Shown: positions 34,875 to 43,927 of the stretch, piece after piece
How the letters are laid out: the number at the start of each line of letters is the position of its first letter
Numbering within the stretch: position 1 is the first letter of the stretch
NCBI RefSeq assembly: GCF_001887355.1
Contig: NZ_MPIN01000003.1
Span: 379,939 to 443,938, forward strand
From: Cystobacter ferrugineus
GTDB taxonomy: Bacteria > Myxococcota > Myxococcia > Myxococcales > Myxococcaceae
Direction of reading: 5' to 3'
Length of the DNA stretch: 64,000 nucleotides
Translations under genes and position numbers: made by a program
The notes under the pieces: model-generated
What the model was told of the DNA's origin: nothing
Database searches by the model: none
What the model saw: the letters and a program-made list of their open reading frames with translations, nothing else

Positions 34875-35200
34875 CCGAGAGCTGCGCCCGTTGTAGCTCC
34901 ATTTCGCGAGCGTGCGGGGATCTCGGCCAGCCAGACGACCCACTTCCGTCCTGCTCCCGGTTCATCGCGGTGGCTTCCCAGGCCGCGGGCTGTTGTCCGG
35001 GCCGCGCGAGCTCGGCACTGCGTCGCGCCCTCACTCGGGTTCAATCAATAGGCAGATGTCAGCCGTTCCTCTTTGAGTGTGTGTTGGGAAACACTGCGAG
35101 TGCGTGAGGGCTCCCGGTTCCCGCATTCCGGATGCGACGCTGTCCGAGCTCGTACCCGCCGACGAGCACGTTCGATTCCCCCATGCCCCAGGAGCCACAC
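34875..35200. other. Divergent intergenic region
   Basis: No gene is supported in these 326 bases between the MBOAT gene and the divergent unknown gene at 35201. GTGTT-GGGA-AACAC (35081-35094) is a short perfect inverted repeat that could be an operator. The segment must contain promoters for both directions, but none can be named with confidence. Confidence 0.4.
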
Positions 35201-36895
35201 ATGGCGAAGCAATTCATTACCCCGGCCAATCAAATCGATTTTCCCAATGATGAGCGGAAGCAGAGCGCCCTGAACCAGCAGTGGACGACCAACCTCACGG
35301 GCTTCACGAACCAGGGAATCGTCGGGAGCCCCTGGGCGACCACGGAATCGGCCGACAACACCTACTACTTCAATCCGACGACCGCCGACACGACGGGGGC
35401 CATCTACGCGCAGATCCAGTGGAACGCCTTCCCCGGGCGTCTCAGCTACTACTACGGCAAGAACGGAGGCGGAAAGACCAACGTCTCGGGCCTGATCCTT
35501 TCCGATGACGACCTGCTGTCGCTGGCGGACACCGGGAAGACCCTCGAGGGCATTCCGTTCTCGCAACTGCCCCAGATCATCAATCCCTGCTCGGGTGCGA
35601 GGAGCAGTTATGGCCCATTCGGTCCCCGTGGCTGGCAGGATGAGTACTGCGAGTGGAGCGTCCAGCGCGACGGCAACAACAACATCGTCCGGATCGACTT
35701 CACCTGCGAGAACCCGGAGTACATGAATTCACTCTGGATGATCGACCCGCTCAAGGTGCTGGAATTGTATCAGCGGACCCTGAACAAGCCGCAGATCCAA
35801 CTCCAGGATCTGGAGTTGAGGGAGCCGACCACCGGGCAGCCCGTGATCGATCCCTCGACCGGGCGGCCGGCCTACAACCCCTTGAACAAGTGGAACAGCG
35901 GCCCCGTGTCGACCAGCACGCAAGGGGGCGCCATGCACCTGACCAGCACGCCCAATACGCTCCAGACGGAGATCGGCCTGGGCGCCCTGGCGACGGCCCC
36001 GCGCACGAGCGGCAACTCCGACGCGGAAGTCCTCATCTGCTGCGCGAAGTACGGCCAGCCCCAACGCAACAGTGATCCTCACATCGGCCAGAGCGTGAAT
36101 CAGCTCGTCACGTCGCCGAACCCCAACGATCCTCCCATGCGGGCTACCCTGGCCAATCCCCCGGGCCTGTACATCCAACTGCCGGACTTCGCCGGCTCCA
36201 ACTACAAGACGCCAGATGACACGGATCCGGCGGCCTGCTGGACCATCGTGCGCGGCACCCGGACGCTGTCCGTGGATGGCACCCAGCTTCCCGGCAACTA
36301 CATCCTGCACGCCACCTTCCAGGCCCCCGCGGGCAAGAGCTGGACGGTCTCGGACATCACCATCAACGGCAAGAGGATCCAGTGGGGCGGCCAGGTGGCC
36401 CAGACCTTCCTCATGCAGATCACCGGCATGGCGATCCCCGCGCAGCAGGCCGCACCCGTCAGGAACTGCCAGGGGGATCGGACGCCGGCCCTGCCCACTC
36501 CGTTGCAGCTCTTCCACGCCAACGTGTTCAACGCCCTCCTCCACACCCCGGTGCCCAACGTGATGGGCACCGAGATGAACCTGGCCAGCAACAGCACCCT
36601 GATCGCGCCGATCGTGAAGCCGGGGCAGTCCGACATCCCCATGGTCCTGACCGCCTCCATTCCGGGGACCACCTTGCCCACCGTCTCCTTCGGGGAGGGC
36701 ATCTCCGTCACGGTGAAGGACATGAGGACGGTGAAGTACGCCGTGCCGGGCAATACCTATCCGGACGAGGCGCAGGCGCTCGAGCTGCTGGTGAGCGTGA
36801 GCGCCAACGCGGCACTGGGGCTCCGGGGCGTGTGGATCAACCAGGCCCAGTCCCCCATCGCCTTCCCCGCCGCGCTGAACGTCGTCGCCGCCTAG
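35201..36895 (+). CDS. Conserved-looking protein of unknown function, partner of haem-c lipoprotein
   Basis: A 564-residue protein; ATG 35201 has CAGGAG 6 bp upstream, better placed than ATG 35183. It has no signal peptide, membrane helix or known domain. Features include an Asn/Thr/Gln-rich N-terminal region with two Tyr runs (NTYYFN, LSYYYGKNGGG), DEYCEWSVQRDGNNNIVRIDF, and ENPEYMNSLWMIDPLKVLELYQ. Paired Cys occur in LICCAKYG. The C-terminal 130 residues look like a beta-sandwich (MVLTASIPGTTLPTVSF, LLVSVSANAALGLRGVW). The lipoprotein cytochrome gene follows 15 bp after its stop, so the pair is probably one operon. A redox function is suggested only by that partner. Confidence 0.8.
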   Translation: MAKQFITPANQIDFPNDERKQSALNQQWTTNLTGFTNQGIVGSPWATTESADNTYYFNPTTADTTGAIYAQIQWNAFPGRLSYYYGKNGGGKTNVSGLILSDDDLLSLADTGKTLEGIPFSQLPQIINPCSGARSSYGPFGPRGWQDEYCEWSVQRDGNNNIVRIDFTCENPEYMNSLWMIDPLKVLELYQRTLNKPQIQLQDLELREPTTGQPVIDPSTGRPAYNPLNKWNSGPVSTSTQGGAMHLTSTPNTLQTEIGLGALATAPRTSGNSDAEVLICCAKYGQPQRNSDPHIGQSVNQLVTSPNPNDPPMRATLANPPGLYIQLPDFAGSNYKTPDDTDPAACWTIVRGTRTLSVDGTQLPGNYILHATFQAPAGKSWTVSDITINGKRIQWGGQVAQTFLMQITGMAIPAQQAAPVRNCQGDRTPALPTPLQLFHANVFNALLHTPVPNVMGTEMNLASNSTLIAPIVKPGQSDIPMVLTASIPGTTLPTVSFGEGISVTVKDMRTVKYAVPGNTYPDEAQALELLVSVSANAALGLRGVWINQAQSPIAFPAALNVVAA

Positions 36896-36910
36896 GGAGA
36901 ACATGCACCC

Positions 36911-38524
36911 ATGTCCTCACTTCCCGTCTCGCTCGGGCGCCTGGTGCTCCCGGGGCTCCTCGTCCTCGGGGCCTGTGTCAGCCGACCGTCCATCCAGGAG
37001 CCGGCGGGCACCGAGGCTCGGACGGCTCCTCCGCTGGCCAAGGACTCCTCGGCCAGCGCCCCCGCCCCGCGGTTCTCGTGCAGCGGTACCCAGAACATCC
37101 AGTTCGGCCCCAACATCCCGCCCGATGTGAGCCGCGTCACCAGCCAGCTCGATGCGAACTGCTTCGCCTGGTCGGAGTTCATCTCCCTGAACTGGCCGGC
37201 CGCCGCCATCCTTCCGGATGGTGGAACGACGGACGCCTCCTTCGGCGCGCCCGGCGATCTCGGAGCGGTTCAATGGCAGACGTACATGAGCACGGAGCAG
37301 CTCTTCCTGCCGGATGGCGGGGCGCCCCCACCGTGGGGCACTCCGCAGAGGATCTCGGAGGAGTGCCTGGCCGAGGCGAACGTCAGCTCGGAGCAGGCCA
37401 GAACGATGCTGGCGCTGAACGTGGTCTCGAAGTTCGAGACCCAGTTCTCCTCGGGGAGCGGCAACCAGGCGTTCCCGCGCGATCTCCCCGCGTGGCTGGG
37501 GGCCAGCCATGGCACCAACGTCTGGTATGAGGTCCGGATCAGCGAGCCTGAATACTCGTATATCGTGGACAACGGGCTCTACAACGCGGCCAACCAACTG
37601 GCCATGGTGGACGGTGGCGCGGGGAGCCCCGTGGTGAATCCCATGGGCTCGTGGCAGCCGAATACGATTGGCTCTCTCGAGCTGAAAGCGGCGTGGATGG
37701 AGGTGCCCAATCCCCAGGACAGCCGGTGGACTGCGTACAAGCTTTCCCCGGCGGTGGTGGTGGAGCCGACGACCCAGAAATGCCGGGCCACCACGGTGGC
37801 GCTGGTGGGCCTGCACATCATCCACAAGACGGTCACCCAGCGCACCTGGGTCTGGGCGACCTTCGAGCATGTGAACAACGCGCCCGACCACGGCGCGGAC
37901 GCCGGGACGACGAGCTGGAACTTCTACGATCCCCAGTGCAAGCCCCGGACGATCGCGCTGGACAAGTCATGCTCGGTGGACGGCGGCACCTCGGTCACGG
38001 TGGGCTGTGAACCCAACGTGCCACCCCCCTACTGGCTCGGTGGCGGCTGCCCGGCGCCTGTCCCCATCCAGGTGACCCGGCTGACACCCATCGAGTCGAC
38101 CGCTCAGGAGGCCAACCAGACCGTCCGGGAGGCGATCGCCCAGAACTACCCGGACTCCGTCTGGAAGAACTACGTGCTGGTGAACACGCTCTGGTCCACG
38201 GCTCCGAGCCCGAATCCCACGAGCCCGGTCAAGGCTCCACTGCCCTTCGCCGGTGCAACTCCGTCCATCAACATCCCCATCGCGAACACGACGATGGAGA
38301 CGTATATCCAGACGGGGTCTCCGGACAATGCGAGCAACTGTATCAGTTGTCACAAGAACGCGACCATCGCCGGGGACTCGAAGTGGGCTTCTGACTTCAG
38401 CTTCGTCTACGGACTGGCGAGTGCTCCGCCGCCACCCGGCAAGCCGCTGAAGCTCAGGAGCTCCGCGCCTGGCAAACCGCAGAAGGTGGTCTACCCACCG
38501 ACGATGCGGCGCATCCTTCGTTGA
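36911..38524 (+). CDS. Haem-c-containing lipoprotein of unknown role
   Basis: A 537-residue exported lipoprotein. The lipobox LGAC is at residues 19-22 after a hydrophobic stretch (LVLPGLLVLGAC). It has one haem-c site, CISCHKN, near residue 478, close to the C terminus. Between these lies a large region with NCFAWSEFISLNWPA, GDLGAVQWQTYMSTEQLF, SLELKAAWMEVPNPQDSRWTAYK and HIIHKTVTQRTWVWATFEHV, which resembles a family of mono-haem proteins often annotated only as cytochrome c family. A strong hairpin follows at 38535. It could take electrons from a periplasmic reaction; the product of the partner gene at 35201 has no visible export signal, so how they meet is unclear. Confidence 0.82.
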   Translation: MSSLPVSLGRLVLPGLLVLGACVSRPSIQEPAGTEARTAPPLAKDSSASAPAPRFSCSGTQNIQFGPNIPPDVSRVTSQLDANCFAWSEFISLNWPAAAILPDGGTTDASFGAPGDLGAVQWQTYMSTEQLFLPDGGAPPPWGTPQRISEECLAEANVSSEQARTMLALNVVSKFETQFSSGSGNQAFPRDLPAWLGASHGTNVWYEVRISEPEYSYIVDNGLYNAANQLAMVDGGAGSPVVNPMGSWQPNTIGSLELKAAWMEVPNPQDSRWTAYKLSPAVVVEPTTQKCRATTVALVGLHIIHKTVTQRTWVWATFEHVNNAPDHGADAGTTSWNFYDPQCKPRTIALDKSCSVDGGTSVTVGCEPNVPPPYWLGGGCPAPVPIQVTRLTPIESTAQEANQTVREAIAQNYPDSVWKNYVLVNTLWSTAPSPNPTSPVKAPLPFAGATPSINIPIANTTMETYIQTGSPDNASNCISCHKNATIAGDSKWASDFSFVYGLASAPPPPGKPLKLRSSAPGKPQKVVYPPTMRRILR

Positions 38525-41386: not shown

Positions 41387-41821
41387 TCAGAACTGGTAGT
41401 GCGCGGTCGTGTCGGTGTCCTGGAATTGGATGATGACCACCCCGTGCTCCTGCTTGTACTGATAGCGCCACTGATCCTTGATCTGTGTCAGGTCGAACTT
41501 CAGCCTCTTGAAGACGCGGGCCTTGCACGGATCCCCGTGCGCGTCATGGGCGATGAGGACAGAGGCTCGAACGGGATTGGATTCCTGGAATCGCCCATCC
41601 CATTCGAAGCCGAACGTGTGGAGGGCGCAGCCACCGCCATAGATGACATCCACCGTCAGTGTGTCCTCCGAGATGGAGACCTCGCTGATGCCGATGGGGT
41701 CACGGCCGGTGGAGCACTCCTGGCACCCTCCAGGGGAGTCGCCTGGCACCTCTTGGGCCAGGGCCGTCCCGCCCACGAGCAGAGCGCCGAGCAACAACCC
41801 CTTCGCACGCCAATTCCGCAT
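41387..41821 (-). CDS. Small exported protein of unknown function
   Basis: From ATG 41821 the 144-residue protein starts with a signal peptide (MRNWRAKGLLLGALLVGGTALAQ), followed by a Cys pair (GGCQECSTG) and a beta-rich domain (ISEVSISEDTLTVDVIYGGGCALH). The C-terminal half is also beta-like and contains one more Cys (GDPCKARVFKRLKFDLT). It resembles small myxobacterial periplasmic proteins with no assigned role. It converges on the sigma factor gene with a 16 bp gap. It lies downstream of the SIR2-like gene on the same strand with a gap of 147 bp, so linkage is uncertain. The upstream frame to 41953 does not look coding. Confidence 0.7.
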   Translation of the reverse strand: MRNWRAKGLLLGALLVGGTALAQEVPGDSPGGCQECSTGRDPIGISEVSISEDTLTVDVIYGGGCALHTFGFEWDGRFQESNPVRASVLIAHDAHGDPCKARVFKRLKFDLTQIKDQWRYQYKQEHGVVIIQFQDTDTTAHYQF

Positions 41822-41968
41822 GGTCCACCTCGCTGGATTCACAGTGGGGTGGAGCGGGAAGCCCGTGGACGTGACAGCCGTCTCGTTCCGGGACGAGCAC
41901 CTCATCGCGCGTCCGTGCCTGAGCCACCGAGACCACGAGCGTGATGGCCACACCGACTACCTGGCGGC

Positions 41969-43927
41969 TCACGGGCGCACGTCCTGACGCGCCAGGACCT
42001 CGCGGGCCACGTGCTCCACGGCCCTGCATCGCGGCACGGTTCTTCCCGCCGCGTCCGTGCGCACCAGGCCCGCGAAGTACAGTCGCACCTCGGGGTACTC
42101 CACCCGGTGATCGAGCGGCTCCAGCGCCTTCACGCTCTGCCCGGCGAGCAGCTTTCCGAGCACCGCGTGACAACTGTGCTCCCCCCGGTGGCCATTGCGC
42201 TCGTCCTGGAGCAGGCGCTCCAGCACCGTGCTTCGCAGCGCGGGGCTGCGCGCCAGCCGCGCCGTGATCGCGTCCGCGTCACGCGGTCCCTCGCTGCTCA
42301 AGGCTTCCCGAAGCAGTCCCAGATGACCGCCCGTGGCCTCGTGAACGCCCGCCGCGTGGCGTGCCGCGTCCTCTCCCAGGGAGGCCAGATAGCGCCCCAC
42401 TTCCTCCTCCGTGAGATCCGGCACCTCGCGCCGGGGGGCTCCCGTGAACACGGAGAAGCTCTCCACGTTGTGGAGGAGCCACGCCGAGCGCTCGCCTCCC
42501 GCGATGAGGAAGTGGAAGTCCACCGGCGAGGGCTCGTCCATCATCCGGCGCAACGTGTTGCCAAGCCGCTTGAGGTGCTCGAACGGCCCCCACTCATTGC
42601 GCAGGACGATGAGGTGCTCGCGCCCGAGGCTCGCGGCCTTCTCGCGCAGATGCTCCACCAACGCGTCGAAGCCCTTGACGTAGGCTTCTCCCAGGAGCGC
42701 CCGGCAGTACTCGGCCTCGGTGCAGTCGGGGACATTCGGGGGCGCCAGCCAGGTGACGTGCTCCCCATACCGTGCCGCCACGCTCCGGGCGAGTGACCGG
42801 GCTCCGCCGTCCTCGGGCGCGAGCAGCACCAGCCGGTGCTGGCTTCGGAGGATGCGCGCGTACTCCTCCTCCAGCGCGGGGCGGCCCACGGAGGGCTGGA
42901 ACGGCACCAGCGCGGGGGGCGGGCCGGACGAGAAGGCCGTGGGGCTCGAGCCGCGCATCACGGGCGGCGCTTGCGGCACCGGCGAGGGGGACGGGCTGGA
43001 AAGGGAGGCTCCGGGCGCGGCGGCGGGCATCACGGGCGGCCACTGCGGCACGGAGGCGGGGGCGGGGCTGGTGCCGAAGGCCGCCCGCGCGAGTCCGCGC
43101 AGGCACTCGGCCAGGGGGGCTCCATGGTCCTCGTATTCGACGAGCTGGATGTTGTACTTCGGCCAGAGCGCCCCCCGATCGAGCTGCCCCTTCTTCATCA
43201 GCGCGAAGCTGGGGATCTGCCGCCCCCGGGTGATGCCGATGACATGCTCGAGCTGCTTGAGCACGTAGGGGTCGCTGAAGCTGAAGCCCATGTAGAGAAA
43301 GGGCCTGGAGCGGATCCACTCGCGCAGGCGCACCAGCGCGCTCGTGTAGTGGGAGTAGCTGGCGGGCTGGGCCGAGTCCCCATAGAGGCGCTTGTAGTCG
43401 GCGCCCGCGAGCACCAGCGTGGCGAGCCGGTGGATGGTGCCGTGCAGGTGCCAGACGCGAGGGTCCGAGGGGGCGGCCTGGAGGTCCAGCAGGTTCAGCT
43501 CGTCGTCCTGGTCATTGGAGACGGGCTCGGCGTCCCCGCGGCCCCAGAGCAGGACGTCGTCGTAGTTGGTGGTGACCACCACCGGGGGCTGGAGTTCCCA
43601 GAGGGCCTGGACCACGGAGAGATCCACGTCGTCCGGCCGCTTGTGGCGGAGGCGCTCGCGCAGGAACCGATTGAAGCGGTAGGCCCCCAGCTCCTGGAAG
43701 GCCCGCTCGGCCGCGGTGAGGTAGTCCCCCTGGTCGATGCGCTGGCGCACCTCCGCGATGGTGTCCTCCGGGCTGACCTCCTCGCGCATCCGCTCGACCA
43801 GGCCCTCCAGGAGCCTGGGCCAGGAGGGGAACAGTCCCGGTTTGACGCCCATGCTGATGCCAGCCCCCACGAAGGGGACGATCTGGTGTCTGCGGATCGC
43901 CTCGACCAGTTCCCTCGGATAGGTCAT
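41969..43927 (-). CDS. SIR2-like protein with Pro-rich linker and NTPase-like tail
   Basis: A 652-residue protein. Residues 1-285 form a SIR2-like domain: VGAGIS (20-25), TTNYDD (119-124) and the HLHGT block with catalytic-type H162. Such domains in defence proteins consume NAD+. Residues 285-345 are a Ser/Pro linker with two similar VPQxPPVM segments. Residues 350-650 resemble an AAA/STAND-like module: LVLLAPEDGGARSLARSVA sits where Walker A is expected but lacks the GK(T/S), and LTEEEVGRYLASLG ... TGGHLGLLREAL matches the lid helix pattern. It starts 56 bp from divergent mutM. A cytoplasmic conflict or regulatory role is inference; it could also be a metabolic sirtuin relative. Confidence 0.85.
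   Translation of the reverse strand: MTYPRELVEAIRRHQIVPFVGAGISMGVKPGLFPSWPRLLEGLVERMREEVSPEDTIAEVRQRIDQGDYLTAAERAFQELGAYRFNRFLRERLRHKRPDDVDLSVVQALWELQPPVVVTTNYDDVLLWGRGDAEPVSNDQDDELNLLDLQAAPSDPRVWHLHGTIHRLATLVLAGADYKRLYGDSAQPASYSHYTSALVRLREWIRSRPFLYMGFSFSDPYVLKQLEHVIGITRGRQIPSFALMKKGQLDRGALWPKYNIQLVEYEDHGAPLAECLRGLARAAFGTSPAPASVPQWPPVMPAAAPGASLSSPSPSPVPQAPPVMRGSSPTAFSSGPPPALVPFQPSVGRPALEEEYARILRSQHRLVLLAPEDGGARSLARSVAARYGEHVTWLAPPNVPDCTEAEYCRALLGEAYVKGFDALVEHLREKAASLGREHLIVLRNEWGPFEHLKRLGNTLRRMMDEPSPVDFHFLIAGGERSAWLLHNVESFSVFTGAPRREVPDLTEEEVGRYLASLGEDAARHAAGVHEATGGHLGLLREALSSEGPRDADAITARLARSPALRSTVLERLLQDERNGHRGEHSCHAVLGKLLAGQSVKALEPLDHRVEYPEVRLYFAGLVRTDAAGRTVPRCRAVEHVAREVLARQDVRP

Follow-up and report, generated by a model that had tools for sequence, protein, structure and literature searches.

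A SIR2 protein, probably an immune enzyme that destroys NAD, with a dead STAND-like switch, and the loss of its predicted membrane-spanning partner in a myxobacterium

A gene of the soil myxobacterium Cystobacter ferrugineus, located in the window (the whole stretch of 64,000 nucleotides that was analysed), encodes a SIR2 domain followed by a tail that resembles an NTPase and lacks the Walker A motif. This raises the question of what a nucleotide-blind domain does behind a putative NAD+-consuming enzyme, and whether the protein works alone. The reading that we favour, to which we give a probability of roughly 0.6, is that its product is one subunit, the effector that hydrolyses NAD+, of a STAND system for immunity or allorecognition that comprises two genes and spans the envelope, and that in this genome the subunit would be an orphan.

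An intact SIR2 core and a tail with a STAND-like fold

The genome assembly comprises 12.05 Mb in 42 contigs, and the closest matches to the gene are found in Myxococcaceae, for example in Corallococcus and Hyalangium. The features of the locus are collected in Table 1.

Table 1. Features of the SIR2-iSTAND locus (iSTAND, inactive STAND), in positions of the window.
Feature	Position	Strand	Basis or remark
SIR2-iSTAND protein gene	41969..43927	minus	652 aa; real ORF; orthologs 63-93% identical
SIR2_2 catalytic domain, residues 1-285	43073..43927	minus	Pfam PF13289, E 8.4e-21; aligned to ThsA
TTNYDD motif (residue 119) with presumed catalytic Asn121	43556..43573	minus	Asn and the following YDD invariant in 13 orthologs
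HLHGT motif (residue 160) with presumed catalytic His162	43436..43450	minus	His and Gly unchanged in all 13 orthologs
Hypervariable linker of Ser, Pro and Ala (residues 286-348); contains VPQxPPVM twice	42884..43072	minus	
Tail, residues 349-652: putative inactive STAND-like domain that includes a winged helix	41972..42883	minus	Fold comparison
APEDGGARS (residue 370) at the place of the Walker A P-loop	42794..42820	minus	In alignment, opposite the P-loop of L024 (SIR2-STAND in cis)
GTGA overlap of SIR2 stop and partner start	41969..41972	minus	Partnered relatives overlap likewise, by GTGA or TTGA
What is left of the deleted partner gene: the start and first ~31 codons, in the signal peptide region	41878..41972	minus	
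Gene for a small predicted secreted protein, unrelated, filling the space past the breakpoint	41387..41953	minus	No significant Pfam match

The preliminary description, made from the sequence alone, had proposed an intact SIR2 catalytic core, and this is confirmed: GAGIS begins at residue 21, TTNYDD and HLHGT stand where they had been placed, the Pfam SIR2_2 match covers residues 116-262, and the catalytic residues are invariant. In the alignment to ThsA, TTNYDD lies over ThsA TTNYD and HLHG over ThsA MHG and, therefore, N121 and H162 are presumed to be the catalytic pair; both are kept in 13 of the 13 orthologs read. Strong purifying selection acts on the domain, with a dN/dS of 0.05-0.06 (YN00) whether the partner gene described below is present or absent. 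Among defence profiles, Lamassu LmuA (7e-22) and Thoeris ThsA (9e-14) match best, each over the SIR2 part alone, and no full-length match to any PADLOC system was found, in line with the earlier remark that the protein could not be placed in a named defence family. The product is probably an immune enzyme that destroys NAD, joined to a molecular switch that is dead. The residue that precedes the catalytic Asn in this motif (window 43556-43573 and orthologs) varies: the partnerless genus shares TTNYDD with the window genus, and the partnered orthologs from Corallococcus and Hyalangium, and those related to them, read TPNYDD.

The linker is indeed rich in proline, and the doubled unit reported earlier is present in the window protein (VPQWPPVM at residue 293 and VPQAPPVM at residue 317), but the doubling is not conserved among the orthologs. 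In the ortholog alignment only 3% of the linker columns are invariant, versus 60% for the SIR2 domain and 43% for the tail.

The tail gave no sequence match in Pfam, NCBIfam or the PDB, and PDB sequence searches with the tail and with the cytosolic part of the partner returned nothing significant. A match to 'Phage_int_SAM_4' (E 0.2-0.3) was dismissed as noise. The AlphaFold2 model of the tail alone, computed with six orthologs, is of modest confidence (pLDDT 62.9, pTM 0.49), and in it strands and helices alternate, followed by lid helices and then by a winged helix. The full-length model was poor (pLDDT 46.9) and was used for secondary structure only. The best Foldseek matches to the tail model were Orc1/Cdc6 (E 2e-3) and RFC. 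The VIA-align top ten were all STAND/AAA proteins, with SSO1545 first (Z 7.2 over 241 residues) and with PABY2304, CED-4 and plant NLRs (TIR-NLR and NRC4 resistosome chains) among the others. In this re-alignment the Z values ranged from 7.2 to 6.3 over 226-243 of the 304 tail residues, and archaeal STAND ATPases, CED-4 and NLRs led the list. A Z value near 7 is not decisive alone, yet the list of matches is coherent, and it gives modest support to a STAND/AAA+-like fold with a winged helix.

The place of the missing motif can be located by sequence, given that the BLAST alignment that starts in the SIR2 domain continues as far as the P-loop of L024, the cis SIR2-STAND protein of a relative, where LAPEDGGARSL stands opposite GPPGSGKSALL. 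At this place PE(D/E)GG is invariant in 13 of 13 orthologs and a Lys occurs in none, so the absence of Walker A is a trait of the family and not a sign of decay. The tail thus combines an absent Walker A with fold matches that are modest (Z 7.2, on a model with pLDDT 63), and to that extent the earlier proposal of a STAND/AAA-like tail without Walker A holds.

A second gene downstream in relatives and its loss from the window

Relatives detected with the tail profile are confined to 13 of the 86 genomes sampled from the family, in 5 of 26 genera, and none was found in the other Myxococcota genomes sampled; these counts describe samples and not full surveys. No relatives were found in IMG/VR and phage records, and plasmid matches cover the SIR2 domain only. 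In eight of the 13 genomes (loci L002-L006, which are Corallococcus, Hyalangium and two MAG loci, together with L022, L043 and L061), a second gene adjoins the SIR2 gene on its 3' side and overlaps its stop by 4 nt, so that the two are probably co-expressed. Of this partner, one further genome keeps a fragment, the window only the start, and three species of one genus nothing. The SIR2 gene is, therefore, intact without an intact partner in 5 of 13 genomes, which means that it may act alone or with another partner. The converse, a whole partner without the SIR2 gene, was not found in the sampled genomes, where full-length matches to the partner profile occur in the eight partnered ones only.

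The partner starts with GTG or TTG and encodes a protein of ~1460 aa. A hydrophobic segment with an AxA-like ending, resembling a signal peptide, is followed by a long WD40 array, a beta-rich stalk, a single transmembrane segment near residue 900 (by hydropathy) with basic residues after it, and a conserved cytosolic half that matches nSTAND1 (PF20703, Pfam 6e-9) and has an intact Walker A (GQRQMGKSS). The mean identity is 0.53 in the WD40 half versus 0.84 in the ATPase. The WD40 half consists of 126-bp DNA repeats, 11-13 in number, an arrangement that favours unequal recombination of the kind known from sensors that diversify; a fast-evolving half built of repeats is typical of such a sensor. 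The likely sensor in the relatives is the separate WD40-TM-nSTAND1 protein encoded directly downstream, and not the degenerate NTPase to which the preliminary description had assigned this role and whose constraint drops after partner loss (see below). A profile comparison of the tail with the STAND domain of the partner gave nothing (hhalign probability <1%, with alignments that were too shallow at Neff 1.2-2.3), and paralogy of the two is not claimed.

The remnant in the window matches the partner gene of the sister species G003 (L022) at the syntenic place in 76 of 99 bases, the next best place in the window giving 50 of 99. This identity begins directly 3' of the SIR2 gene and stops abruptly after ~95 nt. 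In that sister species the partner is whole and the flanking genes (Fpg, porin-like, lysA, dapA, dapB and folK) are the same as in the window. A search of the whole window genome found no intact partner; all that it returned were WD40 repeats and a kinase-linked STAND protein that is unrelated. In a second sister species, G002 (L023), the 5' part of the partner has been replaced by genes that include a Ser/Thr kinase, and the nSTAND1 end persists as a frame of 375 codons. The window copy is, on this comparison, a predicted effector that has been orphaned, its partner gene deleted and its SIR2 catalytic domain intact.

Two further observations concern such losses. The partner gene of G002 is interrupted by the Ser/Thr kinase gene and others (L023:10162-15705), an AHH-nuclease toxin-like gene lies just downstream, and it is possible that one conflict module was here replaced by another. 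In the more distant species G010, just the last 30 partner codons are found as an isolated remnant (L044:8700-8789) with 90.6% DNA identity to L004, which is evidence of another loss.

Gene overlap and probable co-expression would also be expected if the partner were an antitoxin-like restraint on a constitutively toxic SIR2 protein. Nonetheless, in at least two genera that have lost the partner the SIR2 gene is still intact, and a restrained toxin should not persist there. This persistence argues against a toxin held by its partner, an idea that was consequently rejected and that we consider very improbable.

Different genes flank the system in different genera, which would be expected if it is mobile or has been lost repeatedly. 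The enrichment near defence genes that had been anticipated was not observed: the flanks are metabolic or ordinary in the window and ordinary elsewhere, and no defence island was found in the flanks tested. A housekeeping or regulatory sirtuin (a deacylase or NAD+ sensor) in place of a conflict effector would account for a position that is stable within the genus and beside metabolic genes, and for the strong purifying selection. It is, however, difficult to reconcile with the patchy occurrence in the family, with flanks that change among genera and with a sequence that matches the SIR2_2/ThsA/LmuA type and not the deacetylase type, and we regard it as improbable. The same machinery could also be used by myxobacteria to recognise kin, in contact during predation or for cell death during development, instead of phage defence, given its confinement in the samples to one myxobacterial family, its patchiness among species, a predicted extracytoplasmic and repeat-diversified sensor, and the lack of a defence-island location. 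Since SIR2_2 NADases of known function are mostly anti-phage (PMC10952713), we consider this unlikely. Elsewhere in the window, at 35132-38524, lies an adjacent pair of secreted-looking genes of 587 and 537 aa, the former with no Pfam match.

Evolutionary rates with and without the partner

The losses of the partner in several species amount to a natural deletion experiment. Branch lengths of the tail and of the SIR2 domain were fitted separately on one fixed topology. The ratio of tail to SIR2 branch length is 1.2-1.4 in the partnered groups and 2.8-4.3 in the partnerless ones, with 2.8 for the pair formed by the window and G002 and 4.3 for the partnerless clade of three species. Within the window genus the terminal SIR2 branches are nearly equal (0.020, 0.016 and 0.023), and the tail branches are 0.049 for the window (partner deleted), 0.052 for G002 (partner broken) and 0.010 for G003 (partner whole). 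A Fisher test on SIR2 versus tail differences in one partnerless pair versus three partnered pairs gave p = 4e-4. The dead STAND thus evolves ~2-3 times faster relative to the SIR2 domain where the partner is gone and the SIR2 domain stays constrained, in a comparison of few lineages from which some single branches deviate (L004 and L005 have long tail branches). The dN/dS of the tail, 0.21-0.26 (YN00), is relaxed and still below 1.

Given that the tail loses constraint after loss of the partner, a docking module fits: the rates suggest that it is chiefly contact with the partner that maintains the shape of the tail, i.e., that the tail would dock onto it. The data also fit a SIR2 enzyme that, once the partner is gone, is still of use or at any rate does no harm. 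The natural deletions of the partner in several species, with relaxation confined to the dead STAND, offer a ready-made test of whether inactive STANDs dock onto an active STAND or sense alone.

Inactive STANDs have been proposed as nucleic-acid sensors (PMC8195603; PMC12839542), and the SIR2-iSTAND protein could accordingly be self-sufficient, its inactive STAND binding an invader molecule such as a nucleic acid and switching the NADase, with the WD40-nSTAND1 protein as an optional amplifier. Besides the role as nucleic-acid receptors put forward in these studies, an intact SIR2 gene with conserved catalytic residues in the partnerless clade of three species and in two other species speaks for this. 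A lone sensor should, however, stay constrained or diversify under selection, and what is seen is a drop in tail constraint without the partner, to a dN/dS that is relaxed though below 1. We judge self-sufficiency unlikely; the rate data are suggestive of docking rather than of nucleic-acid sensing.

Alternatively, the window gene could be left over from a system that was lost and be heading for decay, whether or not it is expressed. The deletion of the partner and the faster tail on the window branch are what a relic would show, but the frame is full-length with intact catalytic residues, the SIR2 branch of the window is no faster than that of the partnered sister species, and the partnerless state has lasted across three species of another genus. 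A relic is rather unlikely, if less so than self-sufficiency.

Proposed mechanism and relation to known systems

In the two-gene system that we propose, the array of WD40 propellers would sense a ligand outside the cytoplasm, which may be a phage, envelope damage or a non-self cell, and the signal would cross the single transmembrane helix to the cytosolic nSTAND1 ATPase. This ATPase would assemble and engage the ATP-blind STAND tails of the SIR2 protein, and docking would cluster and activate the SIR2 domains, which would then deplete NAD+, so that the cell is halted or killed. NADase activity, the topology of the partner, the contact between the proteins and an immune role, phage defence included, are what we infer. 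The two-gene reading is supported by the architecture, the coupling and overlap of the genes, the conserved catalytic residues, the deletion of the partner, the purifying selection on the SIR2 domain and the relaxed tail. A functional link is also supported by the fusion of SIR2, STAND and WD40 in one protein of a relative (L027). The loss of NAD+ that SIR2-STAND proteins such as Avs5 bring about when they sense phage (PMC12931631) also speaks for the reading. Against it stand the modest fold match of the tail, the absence of detectable homology between the tail and the partner STAND, and the absence of a defence-island context.

More tentatively, the system may be a membrane-spanning bacterial NLR, in which a repeat-diversified WD40 array on the outside acts through a cytosolic STAND ATPase on a SIR2 NADase in trans, via a nucleotide-blind STAND, and in which orphans survive, inert until recruited, possibly by other STANDs. 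To our knowledge, the bacterial STAND immune receptors whose mechanism is known respond to ligands inside the cell, and in most of them a single chain holds effector, switch and sensor. The SIR2-iSTAND system splits these functions over two proteins, with a dead STAND as the apparent connector and a sensor that is apparently outside the membrane. The complete operon of the relatives is a more interesting object than the window copy. Full-text searches found no description of this operon in a literature that they cover incompletely.

The nearest organisation is that of the predicted two-gene nSTAND2 counter-invader systems of Kaur et al. 2021 (PMC8195603, Fig. 6C), in which an active STAND stands beside a fusion of an inactive STAND with a GT4 or HEPN effector. 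Common to both are the two-gene operon, the active STAND together with an effector-fused inactive STAND, and a predicted hetero-multimer, and both are computational predictions. They differ in that the partner here matches nSTAND1 (PF20703) and the tail no family, the effector is SIR2 and not GT4 or HEPN, and the WD40 sensor is predicted to span the membrane. The adjacent active STAND gene is present in eight relatives and deleted in the window. Eroded nucleotide-binding motifs in iSTANDs attached or adjacent to effectors are likewise known from the MoxR-vWA ternary systems and BREX (PMC7159879, PMC12839542), but no MoxR, vWA or BREX genes were found among the neighbours tested here, and BREX iSTANDs are without the C-terminal helical bundle, whereas the helical and winged-helix part is retained here.

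Avs5, which hydrolyses NAD+ on sensing a phage protein and requires its own Walker A, GPAGSGKT (PMC12931631), resembles the window protein in its SIR2 N-terminus, linker and STAND-type module. It is, however, one polypeptide with its own C-terminal sensor repeats. In the system described here the fused STAND is dead, with PE(D/E)GG in 13 of 13 orthologs where Avs5 has a functional Walker A, the protein ends past the winged helix at residue 652 without such repeats, and the sensor and the ATPase lie in a second gene. The same SIR2, STAND and WD40 functions are united on one chain in SIR2-NACHT-WD40 NLR-like proteins, where no division between an active and an inactive STAND is made.

The closest SIR2_2 domains by profile are those of Thoeris ThsA, Lamassu LmuA and DSR1-2, which have the same catalytic motifs and C-terminal regions that do not match. 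The ThsA profile matches residues 5-249 only, and in place of a SLOG domain the tail compares with STAND folds; the LmuA profile matches residues 6-274 only. Neither a TIR domain, as in an adjacent ThsB-like gene, nor an adjacent LmuB-like SMC gene was found among the neighbours tested. DSR1 and DSR2 exceed 1000 aa and have a long helical C-terminus, in contrast to the 652 aa of the window protein, which scores 10 with Dsr2 against a cut-off of 1400.

Several related fusions were also met. In the NLR-like protein of G010 (L027:2473-9120), one chain of 2216 aa carries SIR2, a NACHT-like STAND with P-loop, a pentapeptide-like stretch, 16 or more WD40 repeats that resemble one another, and another STAND, whose Walker A is intact. 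The SIR2-STAND protein of G003 (L024:4936-10032), of 1699 aa and with an intact Walker A, is encoded by a low-GC gene (GC3 0.48) in a high-GC genome and has the look of an Avs5-like gene that was acquired recently. FHA-GGDEF proteins that carry at their C-terminus a SIR2_2 domain ~36-38% identical to that of the window occur in G010 (L026:2831-6241, domains computed) and G001 (L025, domains read by eye); through this fusion of diguanylate cyclase and SIR2, signalling by c-di-GMP may be linked to NAD+.
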